From the NCBI RefSeq assembly GCF_000379665.1, contig NZ_KB903359.1, positions 1 to 64,000 of the forward strand: DNA of 64,000 nt, in the 5' to 3' direction. The notes beneath the pieces were generated by a model, which saw only the letters and a list, made by a program, of their open reading frames with translations, made no database searches and had not been told where the DNA came from. Source of the stretch: Butyricimonas synergistica DSM 23225 (GTDB taxonomy: Bacteria; Bacteroidota; Bacteroidia; Bacteroidales; Marinifilaceae). Positions 27,157 to 47,266 of the stretch are shown here, piece after piece (position 1 is the first letter of the stretch; every line of letters begins with the position of its first letter). The position numbers and the translations under genes were made by a program.

Positions 27157-28476
27157 TTATTTTTGAAGTATCTGTTCAAAAATAGCCTGAATAGCCGGAT
27201 CGGAAGGGCGAGGGGCGTTGGCATCGTACACTCGGCCTTCTTTGTCTAAAAGGATGAAACGAGGAATACCTTTGATGATGAAATATTCCGAAATCTCGGA
27301 ACCGGTCGGGCATTTCTCGATGAGTTGCACGCCTTTCAACTGTTCTTCTTTTACGGTTTTAGCCCATTTCTTTTGATCGTTGTCGCTTGAAATGCTCACG
27401 AACTCGATTCCCTTGCCGGCGTATTTTTTTTCCAGTTCTTTCAAGTACGGGATTTGGGCACGACAGGGACCGCACCACGTTGCCCAGCAATCGATATACA
27501 CGTATTTCCCTTTGAAAGAGGAGAGGGCAATTTCTTTGCTGTCGATATCCAAGAAGGTAAATTCGGGTATGGCTTTACCTTTCAGTACCCGGCTCCACTC
27601 CTCGTAGTCTTTCTTGATTTTATCCTGAAGTTCCGTGGAGGATACGCGACGGTTAAAAATATCCATTAACGGGTCGATCTGTTCCGCACCCCGCCATTGC
27701 ATATAATTGGTCAAAACGGATTCCATCAATAAATCCGTGATTCGTGGGTTTTGGAAATGCTTGTCAATGTAGTTCATCTGGCTTTGGGCAACATGGAACA
27801 GGTCATCTTTCCCGGCTTCGTGCCATGCCACGAAATAAAGGGCGTTGGTCATGAAATTCCGGTAATCCTCAGTGGGCAGGAGGGCTGTTTGTTCCAGCAT
27901 CTTCTCTTTCAAGAAGGGCACCAGTTCCTTACTCCATTGGCGGTAAGCAAAGATACGGCAAAGTCCTTGGTATTGCAACCGTTCCCGTTCGATGGTTTTA
28001 AACTCGGGCGAGAGGGTGGTTGCTTCCAGTATATCACAAGTACGGGCAATGCTGTCTTGTATGGTTTGCAACACCTCTTTTTCTCCCATGCCTTGCGAGA
28101 AAGGAATGTTAGAACGCTGGTGTGCATCGAGGAAATTATTTTCTTCGGCTCCTTTACCCGTGAATTTGTAACGGGAACTTCCCCCGGGGCGTTGGTATTG
28201 GATAGTCAGGTCATTTCCCGGTTGCAGAAAGACCATCTTATTCACGCTTCCCATGCGGAAAAACGCATAGCCGGGCGTCAACTCTTTGATGGTAAACACG
28301 GCACCTCGCACGCTATCGTAGGGAACGGTCAAGGTATGTCCGTCTATTTCCAATTGAGCCTCTTGGGAGTTATTAACATAACTCTTGAAGGTCAAGACGG
28401 TCTGTCGGGGTTGACACCCCGACAGGATTCCCGTCATCACTACAAAAAAAATAATTCGTATCGTTAAATTTCTCAT
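27157..28476 (-). CDS. TlpA-like thiol-disulfide lipoprotein
   Basis: A 439-residue lipoprotein (signal ending ILSGC). The N-terminal two thirds resemble the DUF4369-type beta domain plus helical linker found in Bacteroidetes TlpA proteins. The C-terminal thioredoxin fold carries the redox pair in CWATWCGPC (Cys335 and Cys338) and a GIPRF cis-proline loop. It is likely a periplasm-facing disulfide reductase. It is the last gene of locus 2, 3 bases after the S9 peptidase, and resembles the TlpA-like gene at 33182-34531 in overall plan. Confidence 0.9.
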   Translation of the reverse strand: MRNLTIRIIFFVVMTGILSGCQPRQTVLTFKSYVNNSQEAQLEIDGHTLTVPYDSVRGAVFTIKELTPGYAFFRMGSVNKMVFLQPGNDLTIQYQRPGGSSRYKFTGKGAEENNFLDAHQRSNIPFSQGMGEKEVLQTIQDSIARTCDILEATTLSPEFKTIERERLQYQGLCRIFAYRQWSKELVPFLKEKMLEQTALLPTEDYRNFMTNALYFVAWHEAGKDDLFHVAQSQMNYIDKHFQNPRITDLLMESVLTNYMQWRGAEQIDPLMDIFNRRVSSTELQDKIKKDYEEWSRVLKGKAIPEFTFLDIDSKEIALSSFKGKYVYIDCWATWCGPCRAQIPYLKELEKKYAGKGIEFVSISSDNDQKKWAKTVKEEQLKGVQLIEKCPTGSEISEYFIIKGIPRFILLDKEGRVYDANAPRPSDPAIQAIFEQILQK

Positions 28477-28479
28477 GAC

Positions 28480-30807
28480 TTATTCATTTTTGTAATCGTC
28501 TATGTCCGTGTAATAATCTGCACGGTTATCGTTTAGAAGATATTTGGCAAAATAGTACCAGATTTTGTATCGCCAGAAAAGATCTTTCTTCCCCTTGTAC
28601 AAGTGTGCCTGACCGGGTAACACATACATCTCGAAGTTCTTGCCGGCATCGATGAGCGCACTGACAAGACGAAGGGATTGTCCCGGGTGCACGTTATTGT
28701 CCTCGTCCCCGGTGATGACTAAAAGATGCCCCTTGAGTCGCGGTGCCAATTCCCCGGTGGTGGGTATTTTACACGAGAAGATCGTGTCTTTACCTTTGAC
28801 CGTTTGGGTCACCCCGTGATGCGTTTCTCCCCATGCCTGGTTGTAGATGTTGTTATCATGGTTTCCCGAGGAAGCCACAGCTGCTTTGTAAAAATCAGGA
28901 TACGTGCAAATGGCTGCTGCCGACATGAATCCGCCTCCCGAGTGACCGAATATGCCTACACGATTGATATCGATAAACGGATATCGGTCGGCCAATTGTT
29001 CGATACCGCTCTTGTCGTCGGCTAACGGGTAATCCCTGAGATTGCCGTACCCGTACGTGCGGTAAGCCTTGCTACGCAAGGGGGTTCCCCCCCGGTGTCC
29101 GAAGTTCACAACGATAAAACCGACTTGTGCCAAGGCAGCGTTATGATTGCCGGTAGCGGTGAAGTTCAAGTCCAGCGCATCCATCTGGGGACCGGGGTAG
29201 ACGTAAGAAATGATGGGGTATTGTCTGGTGGAATCGAAATCGAACGGTTTCCACATCACGCCGTACAAGTCGGTTACCCCGTCGGCGGCTTTTACCGTGA
29301 AACGTTCGGGCATTTTCCAACCCGACGCAAACAGAGCGGACAAGTCTGCTTCTGCCAACTGGCAGATTAATTTCCCGTTTTTATCACGCAGCACGGAACG
29401 AGGAGCCAAATCCACCCGGGAGAAGTTGTCCGTGAAGTAATTCCCGGAAGGGCTGAACGTCACGTCGTGATTGGCATCCTCGGGCGTGAGCAGTTTTATA
29501 TCGTTCTTCCCGTCGAGGTGCACTTTATACAGGCAGGCGTAATAGGGATGCATCTCTTTTTCCCGCCCGTGACCGATGACGTACGCTTCCCGCCGGTTCG
29601 TGTCGATGCGTACAATTTTTTCCGCCATCCAATCTCCCGCCGTGAGGGCTCTTTTCAATTTCCCGTCAGCGGAGTAAAGATAATAATGTCCCCATCCGCT
29701 GCGTTCCGACCACCAGATAAATTCGTTGTCATCATTGATAAAGGAAATGGATAGGTTTCGGTCATTGAAATTCGGTTTGCATACCTCATTCAACACGACA
29801 GTCACTTCGCCCGTTTTCGTGTCTACCCGACAAATATCCAATTCATCCCGCGTGCGTCTCATGCGTTGCACGTAGAGGTAGGCGCCGTCTTTGGTGGCGT
29901 ACAGGAAATTGAGGTACTGGTCTTGCCACTTCTCGATGGCAACCTTCGTGATTTTCCCGGATTCCGCATCAATTAAAGAGAGTTCATAGTGGGGCACTTT
30001 TTTGTCACCCGGCATGGTGTATTTTTGGTTCCCGGTCATGAACGTGACCATGCGGGGACGCCCCGCGGCAGAGGCACTTACCAATAGTAATGTTTCAAGT
30101 CCGCGGATGTCTTCCCGGATGACAAACATCCGGTGAGTGCCTTTTATCCATCTGGCTCGGGTGGTGAATATCCTTTTCCCATCCCCCGAGGCGTCATCCG
30201 AGTACGAGAACTCTTGCACCCCGTCCGTGGTGATTTGGCGGGCGAGAGAATCAGGTGCGCTCTCCTCGCGCAGCCAGAGGTTATGCTCTTTGGCGTAAGC
30301 GACATACGCCCTGTCTGAAGAATAGGAGTAGAGAATGGAAAGCGGATTATGCGGTTTCTGCTGTTGGGTTCCCGGCTTTTGGCGGGGCACCTCCGTGCAT
30401 TTGCCGGTCTTCATGTCATAACTCAATTGCACCTGATTCGCCCAAAAGGTAAATACGTTTTTGTCTTTACCAAAAGACGGGGTGATACTCAAGTCCCGGG
30501 CGTTGCACGGCTTGTGGGTCAACTCGCTGATCTGTGCCGCCATCTTCTCGCGGTCGAACAAGTGCACGGGTTTTCCCTTCCGCGGATCCACGTGGTAAAA
30601 TTTCCCCCCCCGGCTGGTTTTGTAGGAAAACCAAAAACAGTCGCTATCGGGTATATAGTTGGCTTTTACCGCCCGGGAGTAAAGCAGACTCCCCGCGTTC
30701 GCCACGGAATATTTATCCGCCAATTTATAGTTGGCTTTTTGTTGCCCGTCAACCGCAACAGGCAATAAAAAGAACAAACTCATCCATATACTATACCATC
30801 TCAACAT
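28480..30807 (-). CDS. S9-family prolyl oligopeptidase (dipeptidyl peptidase IV-like)
   Basis: A 775-residue exported peptidase with a cleavable signal (MSLFFLLPVAVDGQ). A beta-propeller (DPPIV_N-like) fills roughly residues 80-520. The alpha/beta-hydrolase domain has the catalytic Ser623 in GHSGGG, a likely Asp703 in GDEDNNVHPG and His735 in GQAH. Such enzymes remove dipeptides or cut short peptides in the periplasm. Placed behind metalloproteases and an importer, it probably trims imported peptides. It starts 7 bases after the thioredoxin-like gene. Confidence 0.93.
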   Translation of the reverse strand: MLRWYSIWMSLFFLLPVAVDGQQKANYKLADKYSVANAGSLLYSRAVKANYIPDSDCFWFSYKTSRGGKFYHVDPRKGKPVHLFDREKMAAQISELTHKPCNARDLSITPSFGKDKNVFTFWANQVQLSYDMKTGKCTEVPRQKPGTQQQKPHNPLSILYSYSSDRAYVAYAKEHNLWLREESAPDSLARQITTDGVQEFSYSDDASGDGKRIFTTRARWIKGTHRMFVIREDIRGLETLLLVSASAAGRPRMVTFMTGNQKYTMPGDKKVPHYELSLIDAESGKITKVAIEKWQDQYLNFLYATKDGAYLYVQRMRRTRDELDICRVDTKTGEVTVVLNEVCKPNFNDRNLSISFINDDNEFIWWSERSGWGHYYLYSADGKLKRALTAGDWMAEKIVRIDTNRREAYVIGHGREKEMHPYYACLYKVHLDGKNDIKLLTPEDANHDVTFSPSGNYFTDNFSRVDLAPRSVLRDKNGKLICQLAEADLSALFASGWKMPERFTVKAADGVTDLYGVMWKPFDFDSTRQYPIISYVYPGPQMDALDLNFTATGNHNAALAQVGFIVVNFGHRGGTPLRSKAYRTYGYGNLRDYPLADDKSGIEQLADRYPFIDINRVGIFGHSGGGFMSAAAICTYPDFYKAAVASSGNHDNNIYNQAWGETHHGVTQTVKGKDTIFSCKIPTTGELAPRLKGHLLVITGDEDNNVHPGQSLRLVSALIDAGKNFEMYVLPGQAHLYKGKKDLFWRYKIWYYFAKYLLNDNRADYYTDIDDYKNE

Positions 30808-30814
30808 ATCTTTG

Positions 30815-31987
30815 TTATTTAATATTAAACCTTAAGAATCCACGTCCAGGAATACTTTGCCTTGCTTTTTTAGAAACTACCGGTCCTTCGGCTGTTTCCA
30901 AGTCATGCAACACATTCTCACATTCCTCTTTAATTTTATCATTATGAGGCAATTCCAATGCTCTTTTTATCCATTCTGTCATTTTTAAACGAACCTCTTT
31001 ATTCCCACGTACCATACGTTCTCCCAGAGCTGCCCAATTACTTAATTCCCGGGCATCCGCTTTTTTCAAACATTGTTCTCCCCAAGCATACGCTTCTTCA
31101 TATTTGCGAGCCCGAAGTAAAGTTATAAATTCGATCTCTTGCTGCATTTTCTTATAATTCGGCAATTTACGATCTTTCAACAAATCAAAATACGTTTGTT
31201 TTTTCTCTTCATTGATAACTTCCTTTTTCCCATCGGTATCGTATAACGCCAATGTTTTACTTATACTGGCATACAAATTACGCATCGTCTGGTTCACTAC
31301 ATATTCCCCGTGAATCTTGCATAACTTTTTATACTCTTTCCCGACAGCAATAACCAAAGGTGTATTAATATCCTGCGCGCAACCATCAAATGCCGCCCAC
31401 AAATATTTATCATTCAATATACCTGTTCCTTGCTCCTCGTAAAGTTGATTCAACACGCTTTCTACAGCATCAGCTTGATAACACGAAAGTAATTCCTTTA
31501 CATACTCCTTCACGAAAGTTTCATCCCGTTCCCCTTTCACAAAACGAGCCTCTTTACCATTATTTCCGATGGCAACTGCTTTTTCCGCCAAAGCAATGAA
31601 AGGCTTAGTTTCCTTATAACCAGACCCTCTTAAAGCAACGAAACCATCATTTGAAATAAACAAATAAGTAGGCAAAGCAACTACCTTAAACTTTTCTTTG
31701 AAAGCTTTCCCCTCCTCACCTTTTCTTGTATTACATTTCAAATTAATGAAATGGCGATTGAAAAAATCTCCTACCTCTTTCAACGGGAATATCTTTTTTA
31801 CCATAGCAGCACATGGTCCACACCAATCCGAATAACAATCCACGAAGATCATTTTTCCCTCTTTCTTTGCCTGTTGCAAAGCCTCTTCCCAAGTACCTTC
31901 AAAAAAACGAATACCTTCATTTTCCTGAGCATACGCACCGCACGTGCAATAGGTAAATAATAACAATATATAGATGATCTTATACAT
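30815..31987 (-). CDS. Exported thioredoxin-fold protein (paralogue A)
   Basis: A 390-residue protein with a Sec-type signal ending around YAQ, a thioredoxin-fold domain with WCGPC (Cys56, Cys59), then a helical domain of about 230 residues with no family I recognise. The whole protein aligns with the product of 32019-33176 from end to end (shared QENEGIxFFxGTWEE, cysteines at the same residue numbers), so the pair is a tandem duplication. Codon use here is AT-richer than in its twin, which suggests the copies have drifted or have different histories. Probable periplasmic disulfide reductase or chaperone. Confidence 0.87.
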   Translation of the reverse strand: MYKIIYILLLFTYCTCGAYAQENEGIRFFEGTWEEALQQAKKEGKMIFVDCYSDWCGPCAAMVKKIFPLKEVGDFFNRHFINLKCNTRKGEEGKAFKEKFKVVALPTYLFISNDGFVALRGSGYKETKPFIALAEKAVAIGNNGKEARFVKGERDETFVKEYVKELLSCYQADAVESVLNQLYEEQGTGILNDKYLWAAFDGCAQDINTPLVIAVGKEYKKLCKIHGEYVVNQTMRNLYASISKTLALYDTDGKKEVINEEKKQTYFDLLKDRKLPNYKKMQQEIEFITLLRARKYEEAYAWGEQCLKKADARELSNWAALGERMVRGNKEVRLKMTEWIKRALELPHNDKIKEECENVLHDLETAEGPVVSKKARQSIPGRGFLRFNIK

Positions 31988-32018: not shown

Positions 32019-33176
32019 CTATTTCAAATACCCTCTGATAGGGATCGTGACGCGAGAACCGCCTTTCTGGTACGCGGGAGTTGCAGAAGTCGTCAAATCC
32101 TTCAGCACGCTTTGGGCCTCTTCTTGCAGGCTCGCGTCCACGCCGGCCGCGATGGCACGTTTCATCCATTCCGCCATTTGGGTCCGCACGACTTGATTCT
32201 GGCGCACCATGCGCTCACCCAAAGTTGCCCAGTTACCTAACACGCGGGCATCGGCGTTTGCCAAGAACTTCTCTCCCAAGGCGTATGCCGCCTCGTACTT
32301 ACCGCTCCGGAGCAGGTAGATGAACTCAATCTCCTGTTGCAGCGCCTCGCGATTCGGCACTTTCCGTTCTTCCATCACCTGGAAATACGCCTGCTTTTTC
32401 TCCTCGCTGAACACCTCCTTGCGGCCTTTCCGGTCGTACAAATCGATGACTTTGGAAATGCTCGCGTACAGGTTGCGTACTTTTTGATCCACGGCAAATG
32501 CCCCGTGTATCTTGCACAATTTCTTGTAATCTTTCAGGAAAACCAAGGAAAGCGGGGAGTCGATATTTTCCGCGCAACAGTCGAAAGCCGTCCAGTAATC
32601 CTTATCGCGCAGGATTTTGTGTCCCAGCTCCTTGTACAGTTGTCCTAACGTGGCTTCCGCCTGATCCGCCAGATGAAGGGTAAGCATCTCCTCGAAGTAC
32701 TCTTTCAAGAAAGCCTCGTTTCTCTCGCCTTTGGCAAAACGTTCCTCGTGCCCGTTATGTCCTATTTTCAAGGCTTCTTTTCCCAAGGCGATGAAAGCAT
32801 CCGCCTGCATCCCCCCCATACTGCGATGGGCGACGTAGCCTTCCGGTGTGACAAAAAGGAAAGTGGGATAGGCAACCACGTTATAGCGTTTTGCCAATTC
32901 TTTTCCCTCTTTTTCCATGTCTATTTTCATGCAGATGAAGTTCTTATTATAGAAATCACCTACCTCTTTTAGCGGGAACACGTTTTTCATCATGTAGGCG
33001 CAAGGACCGCACCAAACCGTGTAGCCGTCCACGAAAACCAGTTTATTCTCCTGCCTGGCTTTTTGCACCCCCTCTTCCCATGTCCCGTGGAAGAATTGGA
33101 TACCCTCGTTTTCTTGAGCCACTGCGGGAAGCGACAGGCTGAAAAACAAGATGAAGTGAAGGAATAATTTGTACAT
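32019..33176 (-). CDS. Exported thioredoxin-fold protein (paralogue B)
   Basis: A 385-residue twin of the product of 30815-31987: signal peptide ending AVAQ, WCGPC at residues 55-59 and the same helical C-terminal domain. The redox cysteines are kept in both copies. It lies 5 bases after the TlpA-like gene and 31 bases before paralogue A. In this context it probably keeps cysteines reduced in imported protein substrates or in the operon's own enzymes; this is inference from position. Confidence 0.87.
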   Translation of the reverse strand: MYKLFLHFILFFSLSLPAVAQENEGIQFFHGTWEEGVQKARQENKLVFVDGYTVWCGPCAYMMKNVFPLKEVGDFYNKNFICMKIDMEKEGKELAKRYNVVAYPTFLFVTPEGYVAHRSMGGMQADAFIALGKEALKIGHNGHEERFAKGERNEAFLKEYFEEMLTLHLADQAEATLGQLYKELGHKILRDKDYWTAFDCCAENIDSPLSLVFLKDYKKLCKIHGAFAVDQKVRNLYASISKVIDLYDRKGRKEVFSEEKKQAYFQVMEERKVPNREALQQEIEFIYLLRSGKYEAAYALGEKFLANADARVLGNWATLGERMVRQNQVVRTQMAEWMKRAIAAGVDASLQEEAQSVLKDLTTSATPAYQKGGSRVTIPIRGYLK

Positions 33177-34535: not shown

Positions 34536-36938
34536 CTATTTCTTTACCGCGTTTTTAGCAGCATTTTCAACCGTATTCCATTTCACTTTCATGATCACGC
34601 CCATCTCTTTGTAGTATTGACGGCTTCTCAAATCCGAGTGCGTGCGTCCCAACTCCTCGAACTTTTTGGTCATGAACGCCGCACGGTCCTGCAAATAGAA
34701 GCAAAGCTGGTCCACCCTTCCGGTCACGTTCAATTTCAAACAGGCCGTCAAGAACTCTTTCACGAAATTGTGTTGCAAACGGGCACGATACAAGTCTACA
34801 GGTTTTGACGCGCTGTAATTCAAGAATACCCCGTTATCAATCAACGCGAACAAGTCATCCAGCGTGTACGCCCGATCGCCCGCTTTTTCCTGAGCCTCCA
34901 TCAGACGCATCAGACGGGTGTATTCCAACATATTCTTGGCTACAGGCATGATCAACAGGTTCATCCCCATGGCAACATTCGCCCCATGCACGCTCTCCAC
35001 GTCCGGCGTATCCAACCAAGCCGGCATGCCCGAGAAAATATACTTGTTCACAAACTGCTCCATCTCTTTCTTTTGGCTCTTGGGCAGATAGTGCACACGC
35101 TCGTCGTTAAACCCGGCAAGCACCGGTTCGTACCAACTGTTTTCAAGATAATCCAACGCCACTTTCACGTATTCCCCGTAGCACGCTCTAAATACACCGA
35201 CCAATTCCGTGTAACGCATCCAATCATCTTTCTTGTCCAATTGATCGGCAATCTCTTCAATACGGGAAGAAAGGCGTTTCAAGTTTTCAAGCCCTAACAG
35301 GGCCGTCTGCAATTTATTTTGTCCCAAGTCGTTCGGGTTCACCCGATAACCGAAACTCTTTGCCGGAGCGTAATACAATGCCGGATTATTCTTTGCCTTT
35401 GCCGCGATAGCCTTCAAAGCCGAGTGCTCGGCGGTAGCGTCCATCCCGGGAAACTGGCGGTATCCCCACTCGATAGCCCAACGGTCGTAATCCGAAGCCT
35501 TGGAGAAGAGTTCCCGCAAGGTCATCCCGTCACCGGGTTGCGCGGCGAAATTGAAAATACATCCATCCGTCACGGATGCTGAAATCCCATGCTCGCGCAC
35601 CCAGGCAGCATCCCGCAACTGTTGTGTCGTGTAAGCCATGCTTCCGGCAAAATTGGGAAGCAATCCCAATACCTGTCCCAGCGTGTTGGACGTGCGATAA
35701 CGGAAATATTCGGTAAACACCACGGGCAACGAATCGGTAAATACTTTCGGTTCGTATCCGCCCAATTGCATGGTGTAGTTATCCATATTGTCATTCCAAT
35801 TCTGGCAAGATAAACCGACACACGCACTCAAGATCTCTCCGGTTCTCGCGTCGCTGACGATCGTCTGTTGCGGGGCACCCAATACATACGAGTAAACAAT
35901 CTGGTGGTAAGCGATTCTCACCTCCGGCTCCCCGTCCTGTACCTGCAACACGTTCTTGAATCCGGCTGCCTCAAAGCAACGATTCCACTCCTCGACTCCC
36001 CGGAGCACTTGGCTACGCAAAGCCGGACTGAACGTCTTGTCGAAATAGACCCGAATCGGAAGCACCGGTTCCACCAGCTCTCCCCGTTTGTATTTCTCCA
36101 TATCCTCGGGGGTCACTTGCAAATTCCAACGTTTCACGATCGTTTCTTTCTTCACGCCATTCGGATTTTTGTCGTAATCATTATAAGAGATCACGTCATA
36201 CCCGATCCGGGGATCCGCATGACGCTCGGCAATCGTGCGGTCCGGCAACTGCTGCAAGCTCCATTCCACCCATGCCGCATTATGCGTATCCCTTCCGGGC
36301 ATCCCGAATATCCCGGGCGTAAAGGTAGACTGGGCACGCAATGACATAAACTTCACCCCGTCATTGATCACCAACACCGTATCCAGGAAAGAACGGTCCG
36401 CGGCAGGTGTATTTATGACCGACTGGTTCGGGAATGAAAACAATTTCCCGGAAGCGTTCACGTCCGACGTGATGTCGATGATATATCCTTGTTTGTCTTT
36501 CCCGTAAGCAACGATAGGGTAAGAGAACAACACCGGCTTCAACGAAGCGGCAGCCACGGCTCCCGCCATGTCCCCGCTGGCACGGTCGGAACAAATCTGC
36601 TGTTTCACTTCCAGCTGGTCCCCTTTCGGACCCACGTTGAACACCAGCACGCTGGTGATGGAAGAAACCACGCCCGCGTTCTGCCCTTTCGTCAAGGCAC
36701 CACTCACCAACAAATCTTTACCGATAGAAGCCGCCGGTATTTCCACGTAACATTTTTGGGCATCCCGGTACACGGGAAAAGTTCCCTCCAGCTTCTTTAT
36801 ATCTTTCTTGAAAAACGCCTCGTAGCTCTTCGGGGCCTTTTTCATCGCTCCCGGCTTTTTCTCTTGTGCCACAGAGAAAAACGGCATGCAAACCGCCAGA
36901 AGTACGATTATATAACTACATCTCTTCATGATTTTCAT
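34536..36938 (-). CDS. Inactive paralogue of the zinc metalloprotease (pseudoenzyme)
   Basis: An 800-residue exported protein homologous over its full length to the active proteases at 36957-39473 and 8376-10922: DUF5118-like N-terminus, EKYKRGELVEPVLPIRVYFDK, ADPRIGY, a helix at the former active site and the NFAAQPGD block. The zinc site is gone. Where the others read HExGHxLGLxHNF, this one reads NTLGQVLGLLPNF (418-430), so all three histidines and the glutamate are replaced (N, T, Q, P). The frame is otherwise intact, with a signal peptide (VCMPFFSVAQ) and no stops, so it is kept under selection. Probable roles: substrate binding, a subunit or chaperone of the active sister, or an inhibitor. 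Confidence 0.88.
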   Translation of the reverse strand: MKIMKRCSYIIVLLAVCMPFFSVAQEKKPGAMKKAPKSYEAFFKKDIKKLEGTFPVYRDAQKCYVEIPAASIGKDLLVSGALTKGQNAGVVSSITSVLVFNVGPKGDQLEVKQQICSDRASGDMAGAVAAASLKPVLFSYPIVAYGKDKQGYIIDITSDVNASGKLFSFPNQSVINTPAADRSFLDTVLVINDGVKFMSLRAQSTFTPGIFGMPGRDTHNAAWVEWSLQQLPDRTIAERHADPRIGYDVISYNDYDKNPNGVKKETIVKRWNLQVTPEDMEKYKRGELVEPVLPIRVYFDKTFSPALRSQVLRGVEEWNRCFEAAGFKNVLQVQDGEPEVRIAYHQIVYSYVLGAPQQTIVSDARTGEILSACVGLSCQNWNDNMDNYTMQLGGYEPKVFTDSLPVVFTEYFRYRTSNTLGQVLGLLPNFAGSMAYTTQQLRDAAWVREHGISASVTDGCIFNFAAQPGDGMTLRELFSKASDYDRWAIEWGYRQFPGMDATAEHSALKAIAAKAKNNPALYYAPAKSFGYRVNPNDLGQNKLQTALLGLENLKRLSSRIEEIADQLDKKDDWMRYTELVGVFRACYGEYVKVALDYLENSWYEPVLAGFNDERVHYLPKSQKKEMEQFVNKYIFSGMPAWLDTPDVESVHGANVAMGMNLLIMPVAKNMLEYTRLMRLMEAQEKAGDRAYTLDDLFALIDNGVFLNYSASKPVDLYRARLQHNFVKEFLTACLKLNVTGRVDQLCFYLQDRAAFMTKKFEELGRTHSDLRSRQYYKEMGVIMKVKWNTVENAAKNAVKK

Positions 36939-36956: not shown

Positions 36957-39473
36957 TTACTTACTCACTTTAGCGTAATTCTCACCACTTAAAACCTCTT
37001 CGATTTTACGGGCCACACCCAACAAGTGAGTTTTGGTCAACGGGTCGGTCACAGCAGCTGCCTTTCTCTTGGCACGAGCGGCAATTTTCTCCAACTGAGA
37101 AGCATACATCACTCCCATTTCCGGCACCACGTCCATCGGGCCGTCCTCCACGATCACCGAAGCCACGAATAAATACGCGTTTTGCACCATCCGCTCGTGA
37201 GCCGACAATTTCGTCTTGTTGTCCATGCAACTCCAAACCCCGTCGTACAAATCATCCATGAAATTCTGGATCGTGTAAGCTTTCTTGCCGTTATACTCCT
37301 CGTCTTTCAGCATATTTGTCATCTCGGTCATCACCTTCGGCATCAACTTGCTGGTCACCCGTCCGATATAGGCATCCATATTGCTGCTTACAAGTTGGGA
37401 AGTACGACAGTTGTACAACCAAGGCAACTCCTGGAAGAAATACTTCTTCAGGAACATCATCGCCTGATGCTGTTTCTCCTTCTCCACGGGAACAAACTTG
37501 GGCATCCCCTCCGAACGCAATGCCGCGTTCGTGTAGCGTCCCCCCACGTATTTCATCGCGTGCATCACGTAACGCATATACTGGCTCAACACGGCATTGT
37601 ACAAACTCTTCATCAACGTGTAGTTCTCGTCGTCCACGCCGGCAGTCCAGGCCTCCAGGTTCTCCATGATCACCTTCAGGTTTTTCATTCCCAACTCGTT
37701 GGCAGCAAGCGCATCAGCACTCAAATCCTCCGATTGGAAACGCGGATCCCATTTGTCGGTTTCCGTACCGAAGAACACTCTCGGGTTGGCTTTCCGTTGC
37801 GCGGTCACCCACTCTCTCAAATATTTCGTCTCTTCCTCGATGCTTTTCGTATCACCGAAGTAACGGTACCCCCAGTCGATAGCGAAGTTGTCGTACTCCC
37901 CGATACGCGGGATCATGTAATCCAAATCCAGGTTATCTTCCGGTTGGGCGGCATAATTGAAACGAGCGTAATCCATGATGGACGGGCAATGTCCGTGTTT
38001 CTTCACGAACTCGCGGTCGCGGATTTCAGACAACGAGCATGTCCAGCTACTGGCAAAGTTGTGGCGCAATCCCAAGGTGTGTCCCACCTCGTGGGCTACG
38101 ATGTATTTAATCAACTCCCCGGTCAATTTCTGGTCATACGGGAATTTACGGGCAATCGGGTTAATCACGGCTGTCTGGGCGAAATACCAGGATTGCACCA
38201 GACTCAACACGTTGTGGAACAATCCCACGTGTGAACAAATGATCTCGCCGGAACGGGGGTCTGCCACGTGAGGCCCGTAAGCATTCGGCATCGGCGAAGC
38301 CTTATAGGAAATCACGGAATAACGGGCATCCTCGATCGAGAATTCCGGGTCTTCTTCTGGGGTAGGCACCAATTTGGCCTGAATGGCATGCTTGAATCCC
38401 ACCTGCTCGAAAGAGGGTTGCCAACTCTCGACAGCGGCTATCACGTAAGGTTGCAAGTATTCCGGGGTATTCCGGTCCACGTAGAACACGATCGGTTTCG
38501 CCGGTTCCACCAACTCGCCTCTCTTGAATTTTTCCATATCTTCCGGTTTCGGCTCCAAGCGCCAACGGCTCACGACATTCACTTTCTCCGGTTGCGTGGA
38601 ATTATCCTTGTACTCGGTTCTGCCATACGCGAAGTATCCCACCCGGTCATCATAATAACGGGGACGCATCGGTTTTTCCGGCAACAAGTACCAGGAAGCG
38701 GCAACCTCCCAAGTCGTGGGATTCAATTTGGCCTTGGGATTGTTCTTGGGTGCTTTCCCTTGCGCGTAACTCCGCACGGAACGGAAGATCACGTTGTTCT
38801 TGAATGAACTGATGGTCGTGGGATAAGACTTATCAGCCTGGTAAGCTCCTAAATTCAACATCTCAGTCACCCCTTTCAACGAGAAATAGGCGTGATCCGA
38901 TTTATACATATCCGTGATGTCCACCAGCACGGAGTGATCCGTCTTTGCCTTCACGTCGAAACCCGCCACCAGCGGCATCATGCTGGACGCCTCCACGGCT
39001 CCCCGCATATCCGACTTTTCGTCCGGCATGCCTGTCGTGAAAATCGGCTCTTCCAAGAATAATTTATTTTTCGGCCCCTTGTCGAAACGAATAACCTTAT
39101 TAAATAGGGCATCCCCCCCGAATCCGAACATATCGTTGCTTCCTCTTGCCACTTGGGCGGAACCTTTCACCAAAGAAACGAACACCAATATATCTCTTCC
39201 CAGCAGTTCATCCGGCACCTCCATGAAATAACGGTCATCTTGCTCGTAAATATTAAACATCCCCATGTGCTTCACGGCAGAAGGCTTGATAAAGCTCTCC
39301 ACCGCGGGAATCCCTTTGGGAGCTATCTTCGAACTATCAACGACAACAGCAGGTTGTTGGCCTTTCTTCTTGTCATTCTTTTTCTTCCGGTCGGCAGCTT
39401 CTGCATACTGTCCCACCACAAGGAAACAAAGCAATAATGTTAAAAATTTCATGCTAAAATTAACTCTTTTCAT
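36957..39473 (-). CDS. Secreted zinc metalloprotease (DUF5117/DUF5118/DUF4953 type), active-site intact
   Basis: About 838 residues if started at the ATG at 39473 (another in frame at 39494, a third at 39452). A signal peptide (FLTLLLCFLVVGQYAEA) leads into the DUF5118/5117 region. The extended zinc motif HEVGHTLGLRH (about 461-471) is intact, followed by SIMDYARFNYAAQPED. It is the active member of a tandem pair with the degenerate copy 18 bases downstream. It should act in the periplasm or at the cell surface to cut protein for uptake by the SusCD pair. Start choice uncertain by 7-14 residues. Confidence 0.92.
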   Translation of the reverse strand: MKRVNFSMKFLTLLLCFLVVGQYAEAADRKKKNDKKKGQQPAVVVDSSKIAPKGIPAVESFIKPSAVKHMGMFNIYEQDDRYFMEVPDELLGRDILVFVSLVKGSAQVARGSNDMFGFGGDALFNKVIRFDKGPKNKLFLEEPIFTTGMPDEKSDMRGAVEASSMMPLVAGFDVKAKTDHSVLVDITDMYKSDHAYFSLKGVTEMLNLGAYQADKSYPTTISSFKNNVIFRSVRSYAQGKAPKNNPKAKLNPTTWEVAASWYLLPEKPMRPRYYDDRVGYFAYGRTEYKDNSTQPEKVNVVSRWRLEPKPEDMEKFKRGELVEPAKPIVFYVDRNTPEYLQPYVIAAVESWQPSFEQVGFKHAIQAKLVPTPEEDPEFSIEDARYSVISYKASPMPNAYGPHVADPRSGEIICSHVGLFHNVLSLVQSWYFAQTAVINPIARKFPYDQKLTGELIKYIVAHEVGHTLGLRHNFASSWTCSLSEIRDREFVKKHGHCPSIMDYARFNYAAQPEDNLDLDYMIPRIGEYDNFAIDWGYRYFGDTKSIEEETKYLREWVTAQRKANPRVFFGTETDKWDPRFQSEDLSADALAANELGMKNLKVIMENLEAWTAGVDDENYTLMKSLYNAVLSQYMRYVMHAMKYVGGRYTNAALRSEGMPKFVPVEKEKQHQAMMFLKKYFFQELPWLYNCRTSQLVSSNMDAYIGRVTSKLMPKVMTEMTNMLKDEEYNGKKAYTIQNFMDDLYDGVWSCMDNKTKLSAHERMVQNAYLFVASVIVEDGPMDVVPEMGVMYASQLEKIAARAKRKAAAVTDPLTKTHLLGVARKIEEVLSGENYAKVSK

Positions 39474-39577
39474 ACACTGATTTATAATAAACATCTGTAA
39501 TATCTTGGCGTGAAGAGGGAATGCCCAGTGGGTATCCGCTACCCACAGGCATCGCCTGCTTCACTATAATTTACTGA

Positions 39578-40645
39578 TTACTTGAAGATAAAACCGTATT
39601 CTTGCAATTTTGCCTTTATGGCTTTATATTTTGCGATGACCACGGGGAAATCCACGTAACGGTCTTTACTTGGATTTACTTCTTCAGGAGTATAATTCGG
39701 CCACATACCACCTCTCTCGTCATATCCCCAAATTTTTATATTCGTTGCATAACGCTCCATAAACTCCTCTTCGGTAAAGGCCAAAACCGCTTGACAATAT
39801 AACTGCAAATCCTGCTCTTTGGTAGGCACATACCACATTTCCGGGTGATAAGGATCGTGTGGTAGTGAGAGTTGTGAACTGCTAACCTTAGAAGCCGGAC
39901 TAAAGGGACCGATCATGCCCAAAGATCCCAAATGCCGAACTTCTACATTTGATCCGCAAGCTTGAGAAACCATATATTTGTATCTACTATCTTGCGAATA
40001 GATTCTCTCACTAGACGGATTCACAGCGTATGACAGAGCGTAAAAATTCTCATCCAACCATTCCGCCTCATCCAATGCCAACTTGCTAGTAATGGCAGAA
40101 GATAAAAATGCCCCTTTCATCAGACTTTTGGCAGCATCATCCATTTCATGGAAATGATGTACTTGTGCCAACACCGTTGTGTTCAATCCTTTGTAAACGG
40201 TAGTATCTCCGGATGGAGTAATCAATGAATCCACCAGTAAGATACTGGGCAAATAAGTGCCCTCCGGAATTTCCGGAATGATCTCATCGCGCACGAATTC
40301 CAAAACTTCTCTCACGTTCTTTCTTTCCGAGGAAACCAAAGAATAGCATGCGGTATTCCGAGCCGGGGTTTGGCTACCCGGGGAATAGAACACCTGCAAC
40401 ACTTCGTGGTAGGTGTACTCCCCGATTCCTGGGGAATAACGCGTTTCCGAACCTATCGTGTCGTTGTAATAAATCGGGAATCCCGTATCCTTGTATATTT
40501 TGTAACGTAAATTATCAATGGGATCTTCGGAATCTTCCAAAACGAACCAATTTTTTTCCAATCCGGAAGGAGATAAATTTCCTTCGTCATCCCCACAATT
40601 CCATAAAAGCAAAGCCAACAGGCATAAAAGAAAACTGTATTTCAT
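39578..40645 (-). CDS. SusCD-associated lipoprotein without HExxH
   Basis: A 355-residue lipoprotein (signal ending LLLWNC) in the same position as the lipoprotein at 10940-11884 of locus 1: 6 bases after SusD and before the metalloprotease. The N-terminal NLRYKIYKDTGFPIYYND stretch and the C-terminal YKAIKAKLQEYG end are reminiscent of the 'putative zinc-binding metallopeptidase' lipoproteins of SusCD loci, but no HExxH is present. Probably a surface-exposed accessory or ligand-binding subunit. Family link tentative. Confidence 0.72.
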   Translation of the reverse strand: MKYSFLLCLLALLLWNCGDDEGNLSPSGLEKNWFVLEDSEDPIDNLRYKIYKDTGFPIYYNDTIGSETRYSPGIGEYTYHEVLQVFYSPGSQTPARNTACYSLVSSERKNVREVLEFVRDEIIPEIPEGTYLPSILLVDSLITPSGDTTVYKGLNTTVLAQVHHFHEMDDAAKSLMKGAFLSSAITSKLALDEAEWLDENFYALSYAVNPSSERIYSQDSRYKYMVSQACGSNVEVRHLGSLGMIGPFSPASKVSSSQLSLPHDPYHPEMWYVPTKEQDLQLYCQAVLAFTEEEFMERYATNIKIWGYDERGGMWPNYTPEEVNPSKDRYVDFPVVIAKYKAIKAKLQEYGFIFK

Positions 40646-40651
40646 TGTACC

Positions 40652-42253
40652 TTAGTTATTTAATGGTTGTAATGTTCTTTCCGGGCGTACTTCATTGCTT
40701 AAGTTACCCTTGTTAAAATCGATGGCATCATCCGGAATCGGCAACACGTAAGCAGCCTTGTCTTGAGAATAAGGCTTCAACACGTACTCCCCTTCCGTGG
40801 TAATGGTTTTATTCGAGTAGAGAACACTCTTGTGATAAATTTCTTTCTCGAAAGGACGAACCCCGTTCACGGCATAACGGCGGAGGTCAAACCAGCGATG
40901 CCCCTCGAAACACAATTCCAACCGACGTTCATCCCGGATAGCGTCAATCAATTCGTTACCGCTCTTATCCATGGGTTTAAAGTCGGCGGCTTCAAAACGG
41001 AAAGCTCGTAACTCGTCAATCGTCGTGCGCGCTTCCTCGTCTCGGTGCAGGCAAGCCAAAGCCTCCGCCTTGTTCAGGTACACTTCCGGCAAACGGATGG
41101 CAAATTTGTCCGATACTTCGTTTGCCCAGTCCGCTGATTTCACGCAGCGGTAAGTACCTTTTGCCTGTGTTCGCTCAGTAAAAAAGGTTTTCAAACGGAT
41201 GTCGTGTTCATCGTATGAATCAAGTAAATCCACCGAACTGGTATACCCGGAACAATATACCCCATACCCCATTCCCGATACACTTCCCTTAAGAGCATCA
41301 GTATGCAAGAAGTGCATCAGATAAAGACCATGCGTGAAGAGGGTTTCCGTCGATTTCAATTCTACCACTTTATCCCCCTCTTGAAGACCTCGCATATCTT
41401 CCAATTCATAACCGAGTGCCAAAACACTATCGGCAGCCGCAACGGCAGCCTCGTAATTTTCCATATATAAATGTATCCGACTCAACAGGGTAAAGGCAGC
41501 CGCTTGGTTCGTGCGGTATTTCGTGACTTGGCTGACACCCCGCAGGCACTCGGCGGCACGGGTCAGATCCTCCACCATTTGCCCGTACACTTTCTCTGCA
41601 GTCGCCCGGGAGAAATAGATATCCTCTATATCTTCCGAAGTTTTCAAAGGAATACAAGGATCCGTGGCGGCAGTTGCTTTGCAATAGGGTTGCCCGTAAA
41701 TGTTTGCCATCCAGAAATAGAACTGAGCACGCAAGAAGCGGGCTTCTCCTTCCACCCGCAAGGCAGTTGCCTCCTCGTCCTTGTCAATGTCGATTTGGGT
41801 CAACTGGTAGATGATGGAGTTCATCGCAGCTATACGCGACCACATTTTAGTCCAGTTTTTATCCACAAACTCGTTGTTTTCTACATTGCGGAAAGGATCC
41901 GGTTGCCAACGGTAAATATTATAAGCATTCAAGCGAATATAATTGGAAGTTTCTGCGGGAATCCCATTCACGAATTCCTCCACGTCATCGTCCATCAGGT
42001 GAATGTAAGGGAAGTACCAGGGATCGGTATTGCTTAGATTCGTCCAAAAACCACTTGACTGGTCATCTTTAAAATACGAACTTGTAAGACCTCCTCTAAA
42101 ATATCCCTCTCCAATCAACAATTCATCCAAGTTGGTCACATTCTCCACGTAAGCCTGGTTTTGGGAGTATTCCTTCAAAAAATCCCCGCAAGCTGCCGAG
42201 GTAAACAGCAACCCGCAAAGTAGAGCTATTTGATATATATGCTTCAGTTTCAT
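40652..42253 (-). CDS. SusD/RagB-family outer-membrane lipoprotein
   Basis: A 533-residue lipoprotein with lipobox SAAC and the typical GDFLKEYSQNQAYVENVTNLDE start. SusD landmarks include ARFLRAQFYFWMANIYGQPY, a DERRLELCFEGHRWFDLRRYAV motif and a final AYVLPIPDDAIDFN. It begins 11 bases after the SusC stop. It should form the lid of the SusC2 transporter; the peptidase-rich operon suggests a protein or peptide ligand. Confidence 0.95.
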   Translation of the reverse strand: MKLKHIYQIALLCGLLFTSAACGDFLKEYSQNQAYVENVTNLDELLIGEGYFRGGLTSSYFKDDQSSGFWTNLSNTDPWYFPYIHLMDDDVEEFVNGIPAETSNYIRLNAYNIYRWQPDPFRNVENNEFVDKNWTKMWSRIAAMNSIIYQLTQIDIDKDEEATALRVEGEARFLRAQFYFWMANIYGQPYCKATAATDPCIPLKTSEDIEDIYFSRATAEKVYGQMVEDLTRAAECLRGVSQVTKYRTNQAAAFTLLSRIHLYMENYEAAVAAADSVLALGYELEDMRGLQEGDKVVELKSTETLFTHGLYLMHFLHTDALKGSVSGMGYGVYCSGYTSSVDLLDSYDEHDIRLKTFFTERTQAKGTYRCVKSADWANEVSDKFAIRLPEVYLNKAEALACLHRDEEARTTIDELRAFRFEAADFKPMDKSGNELIDAIRDERRLELCFEGHRWFDLRRYAVNGVRPFEKEIYHKSVLYSNKTITTEGEYVLKPYSQDKAAYVLPIPDDAIDFNKGNLSNEVRPERTLQPLNN

Positions 42254-42263
42254 AGATTATTTT

Positions 42264-45200
42264 TTAGAATGTCACGTTTACAGTAAAAGAATAATTGGGA
42301 CGCACGGACATATTCACCGTGGGGGTGATACCGGACTGGGTAACGTCCTGTCCTTTCAACTTTTTGCTGGCAATGGTAAAGAGATTGGTTCCCGTGATGC
42401 TCAAGTAAGCCGCTTGGATGCCGATCTGCTTGCAGAATTTGTCATGCACGTTGTAACGGAAAGAAAGGGATTGCAATTTCAAATAATCGCCTTTTACCAC
42501 CCGCAAACTGGAATTGTCATACATCTGGTAGACATCAGACGGGGCAAAAGTCGGCATCAAGCCGCTGGATGTATACTCGTGCGATGCCCACCACGGGGTA
42601 ACGGTCTTGGTCCTCAGGGCAGGAATATTGGTTTTCGTTTCATCCCCGGGAGTTCTCCAGCGACGAACAAATTCGCGACGCATGTTCTTTTCCCCGTACG
42701 GCGGGAAATCACTCGTGTTCCCGAACAACTTCAACAAACGGATCTTGTTCCCGAAACTATACGTGAAGTTGAAAGAAAGACCGAACTGGCGATAGCCCAA
42801 ATAACTGGAGATACCACCCTGCAACGTCGGCACGCGGGTACCGGACTCTTCCATGACGATTTCAAAAACATCCTCATCCTCCATTTGAGAGTATTTAGCG
42901 TATAATTCATCCGCGAGTTCCTCCTCCAAGTTGCCATAAATGGGACTTCCGTCCTTGGAACTTAACCCCTTGAAGCGGTAAGAGAAAAAGGTATTCAACG
43001 GTCTGTCAAGCAATTGCGCCGTACCGTTCAAGTAATCGGTATATTTAATCTCGTCGCGCAAAACATTGTTGCGGTTGTCAATGGCTTTTGAAATCAGGTT
43101 GTTCACCACCTGCCCGATCTGCGGGTCGATTCTCCACACGAAACCGCGCCTGCCGCTGGCATCCACCTTCTGGTTAATCGGCACGATATTCAAGGTCACC
43201 TCTACTCCTTGGTTGGTCAACTCTCCCTGGTTCACGGTATAGGATGTACGACCGTTGATGTCGGAGATCGATTTGGTCAGGAAGGCGTCTTTCGTGCGTT
43301 TGTAATAGTAGGACACCGAACCGCCGAGTTTGTTTTTCCACAACATGAAGTTGATTTCCGCGTTGTAGGAATGGGTCGTTTCCCATTTCAAGTTGGGATT
43401 GGGATAATAGGCTATTGAAGAAGAAAATTCATTGTACCAGCTATCCAACCCGCCTTGATTAATGATCATTTTAGAAGTCTGGTTGTCCAACATGTTTCCC
43501 TGGATACCGTAGGACAATTTCAACGCCAAGTCATTCACGAAGGCAGTGTTCGCAAACAGGTCTTTCTTCACGTCCCAACGACCGGAAACCGACCAGATGG
43601 GCAACAACTTCTCGTTGGAACGACTGCCGAATTGGTTGCTGGCATCCATACGGGTGTTGAAGTTCAAGGTATAGCGGTCGTTATAGGTGTAAGTCACGGC
43701 AAAATAAGCGGATGCCAAATTGGTCTTGGTATCGCCGATAACCGGTTTATTCAAGGCAAGCCATGTTGCATAACCGGTGTACTTGTTTAATAAGTCCTTG
43801 TAGGCAATCGTTCCGAAAGATTTCCCTCGATTGGGATAATAACCGCGGGTGATGTTCCGATAGGAGTGATATTCGGAAGAGGAAACCTCACCTCCCAAGG
43901 CAACGTTCACCAAATGCAAGTCATTGAACATCTGATTGTAATTCAATTGCAAACGCAACACGTAATTGTTCCGACGCGTGTCATTCAACGTCAACTCCCC
44001 TCCCTGCGGGCATTTGTTCCCCGAGTGCTTCACATCATCTCCCTCACCGAGAACATAAAGGTCATTCTGGCGTAACGCATGGATATAATAGGAACCCTCT
44101 TCAAACACGGTTTCATCATTCGTGGAACCGATCGTGTAGGAAGCGGTACCCTCCACGTTCAACACGGGCAAAATCCGGTACTTCAAGGTTCCCGTCAACG
44201 TGGCGGAATAGGTGTTGATTTTATGGTAGGTCTTGTCCATCTCGTTTTCCACGTTAAAAGGATAGGAATATGCTTTTATAGTCCCTTGCTGGTAGAAATA
44301 ACGGCTGCCGTCCTCGTTATAGGCGGGAATGGCACGGCTCATCTTGTAAGCGTAATCCGTCAATCCCATGGTTCCCCCGTTCTCGAATTTGATGTTGGGC
44401 GTGTACCGACGTTTGTTGTTATTCAATTGGATTCCGAATTGGAAATCCACTTTCGAGAAATTCCCGTTCAACTTCAAGTTGGCGGTATAGTTGCGGTTGT
44501 ACTCTTTCTTGATCACCCCTTTCTCGTCGGCATAACCGATGGAAGCGTAATACTTAATGGTTTCGGATCCCCCGGAAATACTCAAACTGTGCTTGTTGGA
44601 GAGGGAGTTTTGGCAAATGATGTCGAACCAGTCCGTGTTGATCGTCTCGTAACGATTGGTCAACCGGTTAAACTCGTCAAAACTGATACGGCCGTTCTTG
44701 TAGTCCACGTAGGCAGCCTCGTAACCAAGCCAGTTGCTGGACTCCTTGAATTCCATTCCGCGGGCAAACAACTCGCGGGATACGTCCACGCGTTCCTTGG
44801 AATTCATTAAATAGATTTCACGGTCGCTATAATACGGACGACGATTGACGGTTCCGGACAACGAATAAGTCACGTGCGGCTTCCCGGTCTTTCCTTTTTT
44901 CGTGGTGATCACAATGACACCGTTGGCAGCACGGGTACCGTAGATTGCCGTGGCGGCAGCATCTTTCAACACATCGATCTGCTCGATGTCGTCGGGGTTC
45001 AAACCGGAAATGGCGTTACCTAACAGGTTCACGAAGTCCAAGCTGTTCAACTCGGATGGGTCAACATTCACGGGGTCCGTCTGCACGATACCGTCTACCA
45101 CCCACAAGGGCTCCTGGTTACCCAACACGGTGGAAGTACCGCGGATACGAATCTTGGGTGCCGCTCCCGCCTGACCTGAGTTTTGCATGAAAATCATGCC

Positions 45201-45974
45201 CGGAATATGTCCTTCCAACATCTTGTCCACGGAGGAAAGACCTGCCACGTTTACGTCTTCCATTTTCAGTGATGTGATTGCCGAAGTATTCCGACGACGG
45301 TCGATGTCCTGGTAACCGGTTGAAATCACAGTCACCTCGTTAAGCGTTTCCACTTCGTCCTCAAGGACGATTTCATATTCTTTATTATCGGATTTTTTCA
45401 CGACAACTTCCTTGGTTTTCATACCGATAAAAGAGAGCACCAACGTATCGGTGGCATGAGGCACATTCAAAGAGAAAGCTCCATTGCCATTCGAGACCGT
45501 ACCGACAGTTGTACCCTTAATGCGGATGGTGACTCCCGGAAGAGGTTCTTTTTGCGAATCAATCACCTTACCGATGACCACCCATTTATTATCGGGCGCC
45601 GGTGCCGTGTAAGGCAAACGCTTGATCACCACAACGTCATTTACATACTCGTGTGTCAACTTCAAAGGTGTCAACACCTTATCCAGTACGACCTTCAGGT
45701 CTTCATTCGTCACATTCACCGTGATCAATTCTTTCATTTGTAGCAAAGAAGAATTAACCAAGAACTGGTTCTCCGTCTGCTCTTTCATCGCGGCGATAAA
45801 CTCTTCTAACGTCGCATTCTTCAAATCCACAGATACTTTACTCTGTGAAAAAACCAGAGCAGAAACACTCAGATTAAATACCACAATTAAAATACAAGTC
45901 AATTTCATAATCAACCATGTCTTTTTTTTACACATAATAAAGTCCCAGAACTTTAATAGTTCACTTTTTTCCAT
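42264..45974 (-). CDS. SusC/RagA TonB-dependent receptor with STN signalling domain
   Basis: A 1236-residue importer. A long signal region (KKTWLIMKLTCILIVVFNLSVSALVFSQ) is followed by an STN domain (VSVDLKNATLEEFIAAMKEQ), a CarboxypepD_reg domain (GKVIDSQKEPLPGVTIRIKG), a plug with DVLKDAAATAIYGTRAANGV and the barrel with final NVTF. The STN domain again pairs with FecR/ECF genes upstream. It starts 78 bases after FecR2 and leads an operon of about ten co-directional genes down to 27157. Function: TonB-driven uptake and signalling. Confidence 0.95.
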   Translation of the reverse strand: MEKSELLKFWDFIMCKKKTWLIMKLTCILIVVFNLSVSALVFSQSKVSVDLKNATLEEFIAAMKEQTENQFLVNSSLLQMKELITVNVTNEDLKVVLDKVLTPLKLTHEYVNDVVVIKRLPYTAPAPDNKWVVIGKVIDSQKEPLPGVTIRIKGTTVGTVSNGNGAFSLNVPHATDTLVLSFIGMKTKEVVVKKSDNKEYEIVLEDEVETLNEVTVISTGYQDIDRRRNTSAITSLKMEDVNVAGLSSVDKMLEGHIPGMIFMQNSGQAGAAPKIRIRGTSTVLGNQEPLWVVDGIVQTDPVNVDPSELNSLDFVNLLGNAISGLNPDDIEQIDVLKDAAATAIYGTRAANGVIVITTKKGKTGKPHVTYSLSGTVNRRPYYSDREIYLMNSKERVDVSRELFARGMEFKESSNWLGYEAAYVDYKNGRISFDEFNRLTNRYETINTDWFDIICQNSLSNKHSLSISGGSETIKYYASIGYADEKGVIKKEYNRNYTANLKLNGNFSKVDFQFGIQLNNNKRRYTPNIKFENGGTMGLTDYAYKMSRAIPAYNEDGSRYFYQQGTIKAYSYPFNVENEMDKTYHKINTYSATLTGTLKYRILPVLNVEGTASYTIGSTNDETVFEEGSYYIHALRQNDLYVLGEGDDVKHSGNKCPQGGELTLNDTRRNNYVLRLQLNYNQMFNDLHLVNVALGGEVSSSEYHSYRNITRGYYPNRGKSFGTIAYKDLLNKYTGYATWLALNKPVIGDTKTNLASAYFAVTYTYNDRYTLNFNTRMDASNQFGSRSNEKLLPIWSVSGRWDVKKDLFANTAFVNDLALKLSYGIQGNMLDNQTSKMIINQGGLDSWYNEFSSSIAYYPNPNLKWETTHSYNAEINFMLWKNKLGGSVSYYYKRTKDAFLTKSISDINGRTSYTVNQGELTNQGVEVTLNIVPINQKVDASGRRGFVWRIDPQIGQVVNNLISKAIDNRNNVLRDEIKYTDYLNGTAQLLDRPLNTFFSYRFKGLSSKDGSPIYGNLEEELADELYAKYSQMEDEDVFEIVMEESGTRVPTLQGGISSYLGYRQFGLSFNFTYSFGNKIRLLKLFGNTSDFPPYGEKNMRREFVRRWRTPGDETKTNIPALRTKTVTPWWASHEYTSSGLMPTFAPSDVYQMYDNSSLRVVKGDYLKLQSLSFRYNVHDKFCKQIGIQAAYLSITGTNLFTIASKKLKGQDVTQSGITPTVNMSVRPNYSFTVNVTF

Positions 45975-47194: not shown

Positions 47195-47266
47195 TACATC
47201 TCTAAAATGCACGACATTTCATTTAGGGTGACAGAAAAAGAAATTATTTTTCAAAAAAACTTTTCC

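Follow-up and report, generated by a model that had tools for sequence, protein, structure and literature searches.

The gene at positions 34536..36938 (minus strand) of the window, meaning the whole 64,000-nucleotide stretch of the Butyricimonas synergistica DSM 23225 genome analyzed here, encodes an 800-residue DUF4953 protein whose zinc site has been replaced, and it lies directly behind a sister gene in which the site is intact. With moderate confidence, we read this pseudo-protease as a selected, catalytically dead subunit of an exported two-gene heteromeric metalloprotease. Comparable live/dead pairs recur in the same genome, across its genus and family, and in a second family.

A DUF4953 protein without its zinc site, behind an intact sister

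The two genes and the codons of their active-site segments are located as follows.

34536..36938, minus strand: HExxH-less DUF5118-DUF5117-DUF4953 protein of 800 aa, the pseudo-protease (open reading frame, Pfam, alignment)
35655..35687, minus strand: codons of NTLGQVLGLLP, at the place of HExxHxxGxxH (counted on the sequence)
36957..39494, minus strand: intact sister protease of 845 aa, preceding the pseudo-protease in transcription (open reading frame, Pfam)
38061..38093, minus strand: codons of HEVGHTLGLRH, the zinc site of the intact sister (HExxH at residue 468; computed from the reading frame)

The pseudo-protease frame starts with ATG, begins with a signal-peptide-like N-terminus and stays open for 800 aa. 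Its product matches PF16313 (DUF4953, "Met-zincin") with 193.2 bits against a gathering cut-off of 24.2, as well as PF17148 (DUF5117) and PF17162 (DUF5118) above the Pfam gathering scores, and this DUF5118-DUF5117-DUF4953 architecture spans its full length. The same three families are matched by the 845-aa sister. Judged by sequence, the pseudo-protease passes as a member of the DUF4953 family. The preliminary description of this DNA had stated that the full 800-residue frame, the signal-peptide-like start and the family blocks are kept, and the reading frame and the three Pfam matches confirm this. Membership of the M16 family was not found, as Pfam at E <= 0.001 returned PF16313, PF17148 and PF17162 only. 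A sequence search of the PDB for solved relatives gave none, returning one chance-level match (E 0.81).

The 800-aa and 845-aa proteins share 27% identity over 774 aligned positions, and a profile built from 16 HExxH-less copies matched one built from 58 intact proteins across 782 columns with a probability of 100. In the alignment with the sister, NTLGQVLGLLP stands opposite HEVGHTLGLRH, and SVTDGCIFN stands opposite the Met-turn SIMDYARFN. The pseudo-protease is without all three zinc histidines, the catalytic glutamate and the Met-turn methionine, so that both hallmarks of an active metzincin, the HExxHxxGxxH/D motif and the Met-turn methionine, are absent. The replacement of the histidines and the glutamate by NTLGQVLGLLP, as first described, is thereby borne out. 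The tight packing of the two genes also proved correct from the frame coordinates, with a gap of 18 bp from the intact sister to the pseudo-protease.

The surrounding SusC/SusD-type locus

On the minus strand, the genes run in the order ECF sigma factor, FecR, SusC, SusD, 355-aa putative lipoprotein, live protease and dead protease, followed by a TlpA-like protein, two thioredoxin-fold proteins, a DPPIV-type peptidase and a second TlpA-like protein.

47267..47836, minus strand: ECF sigma factor
46052..47212, minus strand: FecR-type protein (anti-sigma)
42264..45974, minus strand: SusC/RagA TonB-linked outer membrane protein (Pfam and further profile matches)
40652..42253, minus strand: SusD/RagB-family protein
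39578..40645, minus strand: 355-aa putative lipoprotein, no Pfam match, with nine relatives in other DUF4953 loci of the genome
33182..34531, minus strand: TlpA/ResA-like thiol-disulfide protein, 4 bp after the pseudo-protease
32019..33176, minus strand: thioredoxin-fold protein
30815..31987, minus strand: thioredoxin-fold protein
28480..30807, minus strand: DPPIV-type S9 peptidase
27157..28476, minus strand: second TlpA-like redoxin

This company of SusC/SusD, thiol-disulfide and DPPIV-type genes suggests disulfide-containing peptides as cargo. The window holds a second DUF4953 gene (8376-10922, minus strand), which is single, intact (HEIGHTLGLMH) and located behind SusC and SusD genes.

The putative lipoprotein at 39578-40645 belongs to a family of ~310-360 aa encoded beside DUF4953 genes (relatives at L011, L014, L018, L019, L028, L030, L035, L037 and L039) and characterized by a conserved NDT motif. 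Neither Pfam, run on ten relatives, nor NCBIfam, run on two, gave a family name over cut-off, which leaves the candidate reading as a degenerate Peptidase_Mx1 unsupported.

Live/dead pairs in the genome, genus and family

The B. synergistica genome contains 54 DUF4953 matches in 4.77 Mb. The 35 stretches covering them yielded 55 frames, two at contig edges and 53 full-length, the latter comprising 40 intact copies, 2 that keep HExxH with the third histidine lost, and 11 without HExxH. An intact copy immediately precedes every one of the 11, and all of them fall within the 19 downstream-tandem slots among the 53 (hypergeometric 1e-6, a value that assumes independent copies and, the copies being related, does not count independent events). 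These 11 cases rule out an isolated curiosity. A SusC-type gene is present in the stretch around every one of them, as it is around most DUF4953 copies of this genome.

We extended the tally to a ten-genome set composed of this genome, five more of the genus, and four of the family (G010, G015, G018, G028) picked for their many candidates. Copies of at least 600 aa were counted, leaving out the two contig-edge pieces of the own genome and the two pieces of the TAG-split copy in G018. Copies were called dead or intact from the aligned site, as a motif search alone gave a chance HE..H match in L206. Full-length HExxH-less copies were found directly behind an intact copy in 38 of 38 cases, and first or single-position copies were intact in 147 of 147. 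Of the downstream slots, 24 were occupied by intact copies, 4 by copies missing the third histidine, and 38 by copies with no site; the 24 show that a copy in tandem can keep its site. Gaps from live to dead gene ranged from -14 to +156 bp, with 32 of 38 under 30 bp.

A wider tally also took in the distant genome G196 and single copies from G143 and G205 (one each), and open full-length frames without HExxH came to 39 in total. The G196 pair (L227), from another family of the class, has the reverse order, with the dead copy first and a 4-base overlap.

Several arrangements were observed alongside these counts. The genus member G005 has 45 DUF4953 matches, and L206:2894-16154 carries five tandem DUF4953 genes alternating live, dead, live, dead, live. 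Tandem arrays in which every copy is intact (L010, L018, L022, L147, L173, L176 and L184) perhaps represent the stage before site loss. A DUF4953 fragment with stops (G004 C4:225757-226138) accounts for two leftover matches, the retrieved copies otherwise agreeing with the match totals, and shows that real decay occurs in the family.

Repeated origins of the dead copies

Phylogenetic reconstruction of 278 proteins with FastTree, active-site columns removed, requires 6 changes of the dead label. Clade A unites 16 dead copies, including the pseudo-protease, and is sister to their own live partners together with those of L167 and L103. Clade B comprises 18 dead copies; its nearest sister is the single live copy L178, and it shares a group with its own partners and the tandem arrays of live copies. 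The Met-turn methionine is mostly retained in clade B dead copies, unlike in the pseudo-protease at 34536-36938.

Approximately unbiased (AU) tests were performed on 51 proteins, with groups chosen after the trees had been seen. Joining clades A and B into one clade was rejected (p 8.7e-8). Joining all 18 tested dead copies was also rejected (p 8e-5), which excludes one origin for all of them. Placing clade A with L041/L203 (p 0.34) or with L227 (p 0.28) was not rejected. The zinc site thus appears to have been lost at least four times, with up to six losses possible, the range arising because L041/L203 and L227 may belong to clade A; separate losses in L182 and L146 derive from FastTree alone.

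Triple arrays display steps of site loss, with intermediates persisting. Among third copies, those of L118 and L186 are intact, those of L036 and L192 lack only the third histidine, and that of L146 has lost everything; among middle copies, L018, L147 and L184 still have the whole site, L014 and L165 are missing the third histidine, and L182 retains nothing of it. For four independent losses, the chance that all fell in downstream slots is 0.009 (67 of 215 slots downstream, eleven genomes); a six-origin figure is not used, since L227 lies outside the downstream slots. Where the third histidine would stand, 13 of 16 clade A dead copies have a proline, as do L041/L203 and L227 (examples are LGLLP, LGMKP and LGLKP), through either shared ancestry or convergence.

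The Hoylesella family and wider taxonomic spread

Hoylesella timonensis (L103) carries an intact copy followed, with a 4-base overlap, by an HExxH-less protein of 420 aa, which is 34% identical to the clade A dead copies L042 and L153 and 24% identical to the pseudo-protease. Searching 251 genomes of the Hoylesella family with this protein recovered relatives in 7 genomes at 8 places; the query being the dead form, live copies without a partner lie outside this count. In 8 of 8 places, the HExxH-less frame lies directly behind an intact one, with gaps of -4 to 28, the intact frame of L241 being cut by a contig end. Seven of the eight dead copies score better with the clade A dead profile than with the live profile, and the opposite holds for their neighbours; the remaining one (L244) falls outside the clade A type and retains two of the histidines. 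The stretch behind the former zinc helix is missing in 6 of the 8, so the dead catalytic region is not always kept, and the N-terminal half seems to be the part common to dead copies.

The check suggested in the preliminary description, whether HExxH-less copies always neighbour an intact one, came out positive throughout the genomes surveyed: they lie behind it in 38 of 38 cases in the ten genomes, before it in L227, and again behind it in 8 of 8 places in the Hoylesella family.

In the phylum sample, 81 of 148 genomes, the own genome included, had a DUF4953 match; against the 54 of the own genome, the other genomes had 1 to 5 each among the matches listed. This survey scored at most 14 candidates per genome (14 of 60 in the own genome), one other genome exceeded that number, and it is not a pair census. 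In the order sample, 12 of 79 genomes had a match (own genome included), 10 of them over the cut-off.

Partner fidelity

In the live clade that contains the neighbour of the pseudo-protease, 18 of 18 tips have an HExxH-less neighbour, comprising 16 full-length copies, one TAG-split copy and one of 420 aa. Among clade B live partners, whose node support is only 74, a dead neighbour accompanies 18 of 19, and the 19th is the last gene of the five-gene L206 array. Within the own genome, distances among clade B dead copies agree with those among their partners (6 pairs, r 0.98; of 720 permutations, the identity alone attained this value); clade A distances show no significant agreement (4 pairs, r 0.20, 9 of 24 permutations). 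Comparison of clade B partners with single live copies yielded no residues marking the partners, only one gap column.

Selection, conservation and the former metal site

Purifying selection acts on the site-less form. By the Nei-Gojobori method (own script; values with dS above 1.5 are rough), dS of the dead copies could be measured in 15 of 26 comparisons, being saturated in the other 11, and dN/dS in those 15 was 0.05-0.16; that of live partners was 0.02-0.14 in the 13 of 26 that could be measured. Where both sides were measurable, the dead copy had the higher value in 10 of 13 comparisons. Relative to an 88%-identical orthologue, the pseudo-protease gave 0.071 and its partner 0.037.

Three orthologues of the pseudo-protease were found (L044/L159, L045/L167 and L046/L193). 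One of them, L045/L167, comes from a metagenome-assembled genome (MAG) and contains a single in-frame TAG, reflecting either a MAG error or recent loss. The clade B copy L143 is without an N-terminal export signal and follows a 156-bp gap. The preliminary description had tied plain decay to dN/dS near 1 or to stop codons in close relatives: the measured values (0.05-0.16 in 15 of 26) are far from 1, and one stop, this TAG, does occur in a close relative. For the dead-copy group, plain decay is largely refuted.

Clade A dead copies have 38 invariant columns against 116 in their partners, and positions 451-500 form their best conserved window; in L042, the segment that follows the former zinc helix has been deleted. 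Only six Asp, Glu, His or Cys positions of the clade A dead copies reach at least 90% conservation: E66, E323, E368, D470, D485 and H767. The five acidic ones are likewise invariant, or nearly so, when 64 dead and live proteins are aligned together; H767, the sole conserved His/Cys, is absent from the 420-aa form. Clade B dead copies have many conserved acidic positions, one conserved histidine (H60, which seems to correspond to H62 of the partners) and no conserved cysteine. Sequence conservation therefore reveals no substitute His/Cys metal site in clade A or B, and the candidate explanation that dead copies rebuilt one is rejected at this level. The alternative metal site considered in the preliminary description accordingly appears to be absent from either main clade.

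All 16 clade A dead copies have a glutamine where leader cleavage is expected, consistent with the Bacteroidetes Q-rule (PMC10653852). A looser leader-site pattern is matched in clade A by 11 of 16 dead copies and 5 of 16 live partners, and in clade B by 1 of 18 dead copies and 1 of 18 partners, so it does not mark the pairs in general.

Proposed function and alternative explanations

Low dN/dS, constant adjacency and the lack of a conserved substitute metal site together support the initial proposal of a selected pseudoenzyme, and the heteromeric-subunit reading stated at the outset builds on it. The intact copy is presumably an active protease, and we infer a physical complex of live and dead chains, as we do its stoichiometry, substrate and compartment. 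The intact DUF4953 enzyme would be made first, followed at once by its dead homologue, whose translation is probably coupled to it; both chains would be exported and then assemble with each other. The dead chain could provide a wall or a substrate-binding surface, or stabilize the live chain, and, by analogy with M16B pairs and mitochondrial processing peptidase (MPP), might complete or tune its substrate site. The pair would trim oligopeptides imported by the SusC/SusD proteins of the same locus, while the thiol-disulfide proteins may open disulfides and the DPPIV-type enzyme may finish the peptides. The route could have led from a single gene to a tandem live array, in which one copy lost its zinc site, after which the pair spread as a unit, a course that would have been taken at least four times. 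We tentatively extend this to gut Bacteroidota, where this metzincin-like family might have repeatedly (at least four times) converted tandem homologues into heteromeric live/dead proteases; the eleven pairs of the own genome, each next to a SusC-type importer gene, would then be parallel two-subunit proteases whose dead subunit sets substrate choice. This broader picture is possible but on balance doubtful.

The main rival to the subunit reading is that the dead homologue acts as an inhibitor or safety subunit, blocking or restricting the exported intact protease until substrate arrives. Such a role would produce the same adjacency, gene dosage and downstream order, and a pure binder could tolerate loss of the region following the zinc helix, as in 6 of 8 Hoylesella-family copies. 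We nevertheless regard it as unlikely: these genomes also contain single live copies that do without a dead neighbour, and the only conserved His/Cys residues, H767 in clade A and H60 in clade B, include no cysteine for a Cys-switch-like plug. Alternatively, the dead homologue might be an exported peptide-binding or peptide-presenting protein that uses the former groove and forms no stable complex with the protease. The SusC-type gene near all 11 own-genome cases, the full-length homology of most copies and the strong conservation of positions 451-500 in clade A would all suit a peptide binder. This explanation seems improbable, as a free binder would not require an intact neighbour, yet none of the surveyed genomes has the dead form without one, and the region following the zinc helix is deleted both in L042 and in 6 of 8 Hoylesella-family copies.

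Two further explanations bear on whether the protein has a function of its own or any function at all. Purifying selection over the full length would also be expected if the pseudo-protease had acquired a new catalytic activity at a different site, but apart from H767, which the 420-aa form lacks, the conserved residues of clade A are shared with live proteins in the 64-protein alignment. Clade B offers one conserved histidine and no cysteine, though with its many conserved acidic positions a new site is conceivable there; overall, we consider a new activity very improbable. Equally remote in our estimate is plain decay of a redundant tandem copy. The TAG in orthologue L045/L167, the missing N-terminus of L143, the elevated dN/dS of dead copies relative to partners (10 of 13 comparisons) and the stop-bearing G004 fragment at C4:225757-226138 are what decay would produce. 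Opposing it are dN/dS values of 0.05-0.16 wherever measurable, the 39 open full-length frames without HExxH together with the occurrence of the form in a second family, and the finding that no surveyed genome has a solitary open-frame HExxH-less copy.

Comparison with known systems

Searches of the literature, with subscription journals mostly outside their scope, gave no paper on DUF5117 or DUF4953, and none of the matches listed was a paper on such live/dead pairs. Confirming the subunit reading would assign a function for the first time to a DUF family that has 54 matches in a single gut genome, and would provide a lead on protein and peptide handling by Butyricimonas.

The closest parallels are the M16B two-gene peptidases (SPH2681/SPH2682, TTHA1264/TTHA1265, AlbF/AlbE) and MPP alpha/beta, in which a zinc subunit is combined with a zinc-motif-less homologue; the M16B pairs form two-gene operons in prokaryotes, and the dead subunit of MPP is indispensable and gives the cavity its shape (PMC11266112, PMC12731061). 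The DUF4953 pairs resemble them in having adjacent, paired genes for a live protein and a zinc-motif-less homologue. They differ in family, DUF4953 rather than M16 with its HxxEH motif, and in that the arrangement apparently arose at least four times within it. Intact members of PF16313, PF17148 and PF17162 align with the pseudo-protease over its full length, which lacks their HExxHxxGxxH motif and Met-turn methionine. TldE is likewise a zinc-less partner, that of TldD, in a family unrelated to DUF4953. Inactive ADAMs and M14 homologues are metallopeptidase pseudoenzymes without catalytic or zinc residues (PMC11266112), and as described there they are not operon pairs with a live twin, unlike the DUF4953 pairs.

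At the level of the locus, the likeness is to RagAB/SusCD-type peptide-uptake loci, RagAB being described as a protein-uptake system of P. gingivalis (PMC11817032). Shared with them are SusC, SusD, ECF sigma factor, FecR and peptidase genes, all transcribed the same way; the locus described here additionally contains thiol-disulfide proteins and the live/dead protease pair.

The principle of a dead partner is thus already known, and what seems new is the family, the number of pairs and their repeated origin. The metallopeptidase examples of dead partners considered here are single pairs or pairs of one old family; DUF4953 offers several parallel conversions in one family, with intermediates in sister species and, as natural controls, live copies that have no partner, so that how a live/dead heteromer evolves from an enzyme becomes directly testable in it.
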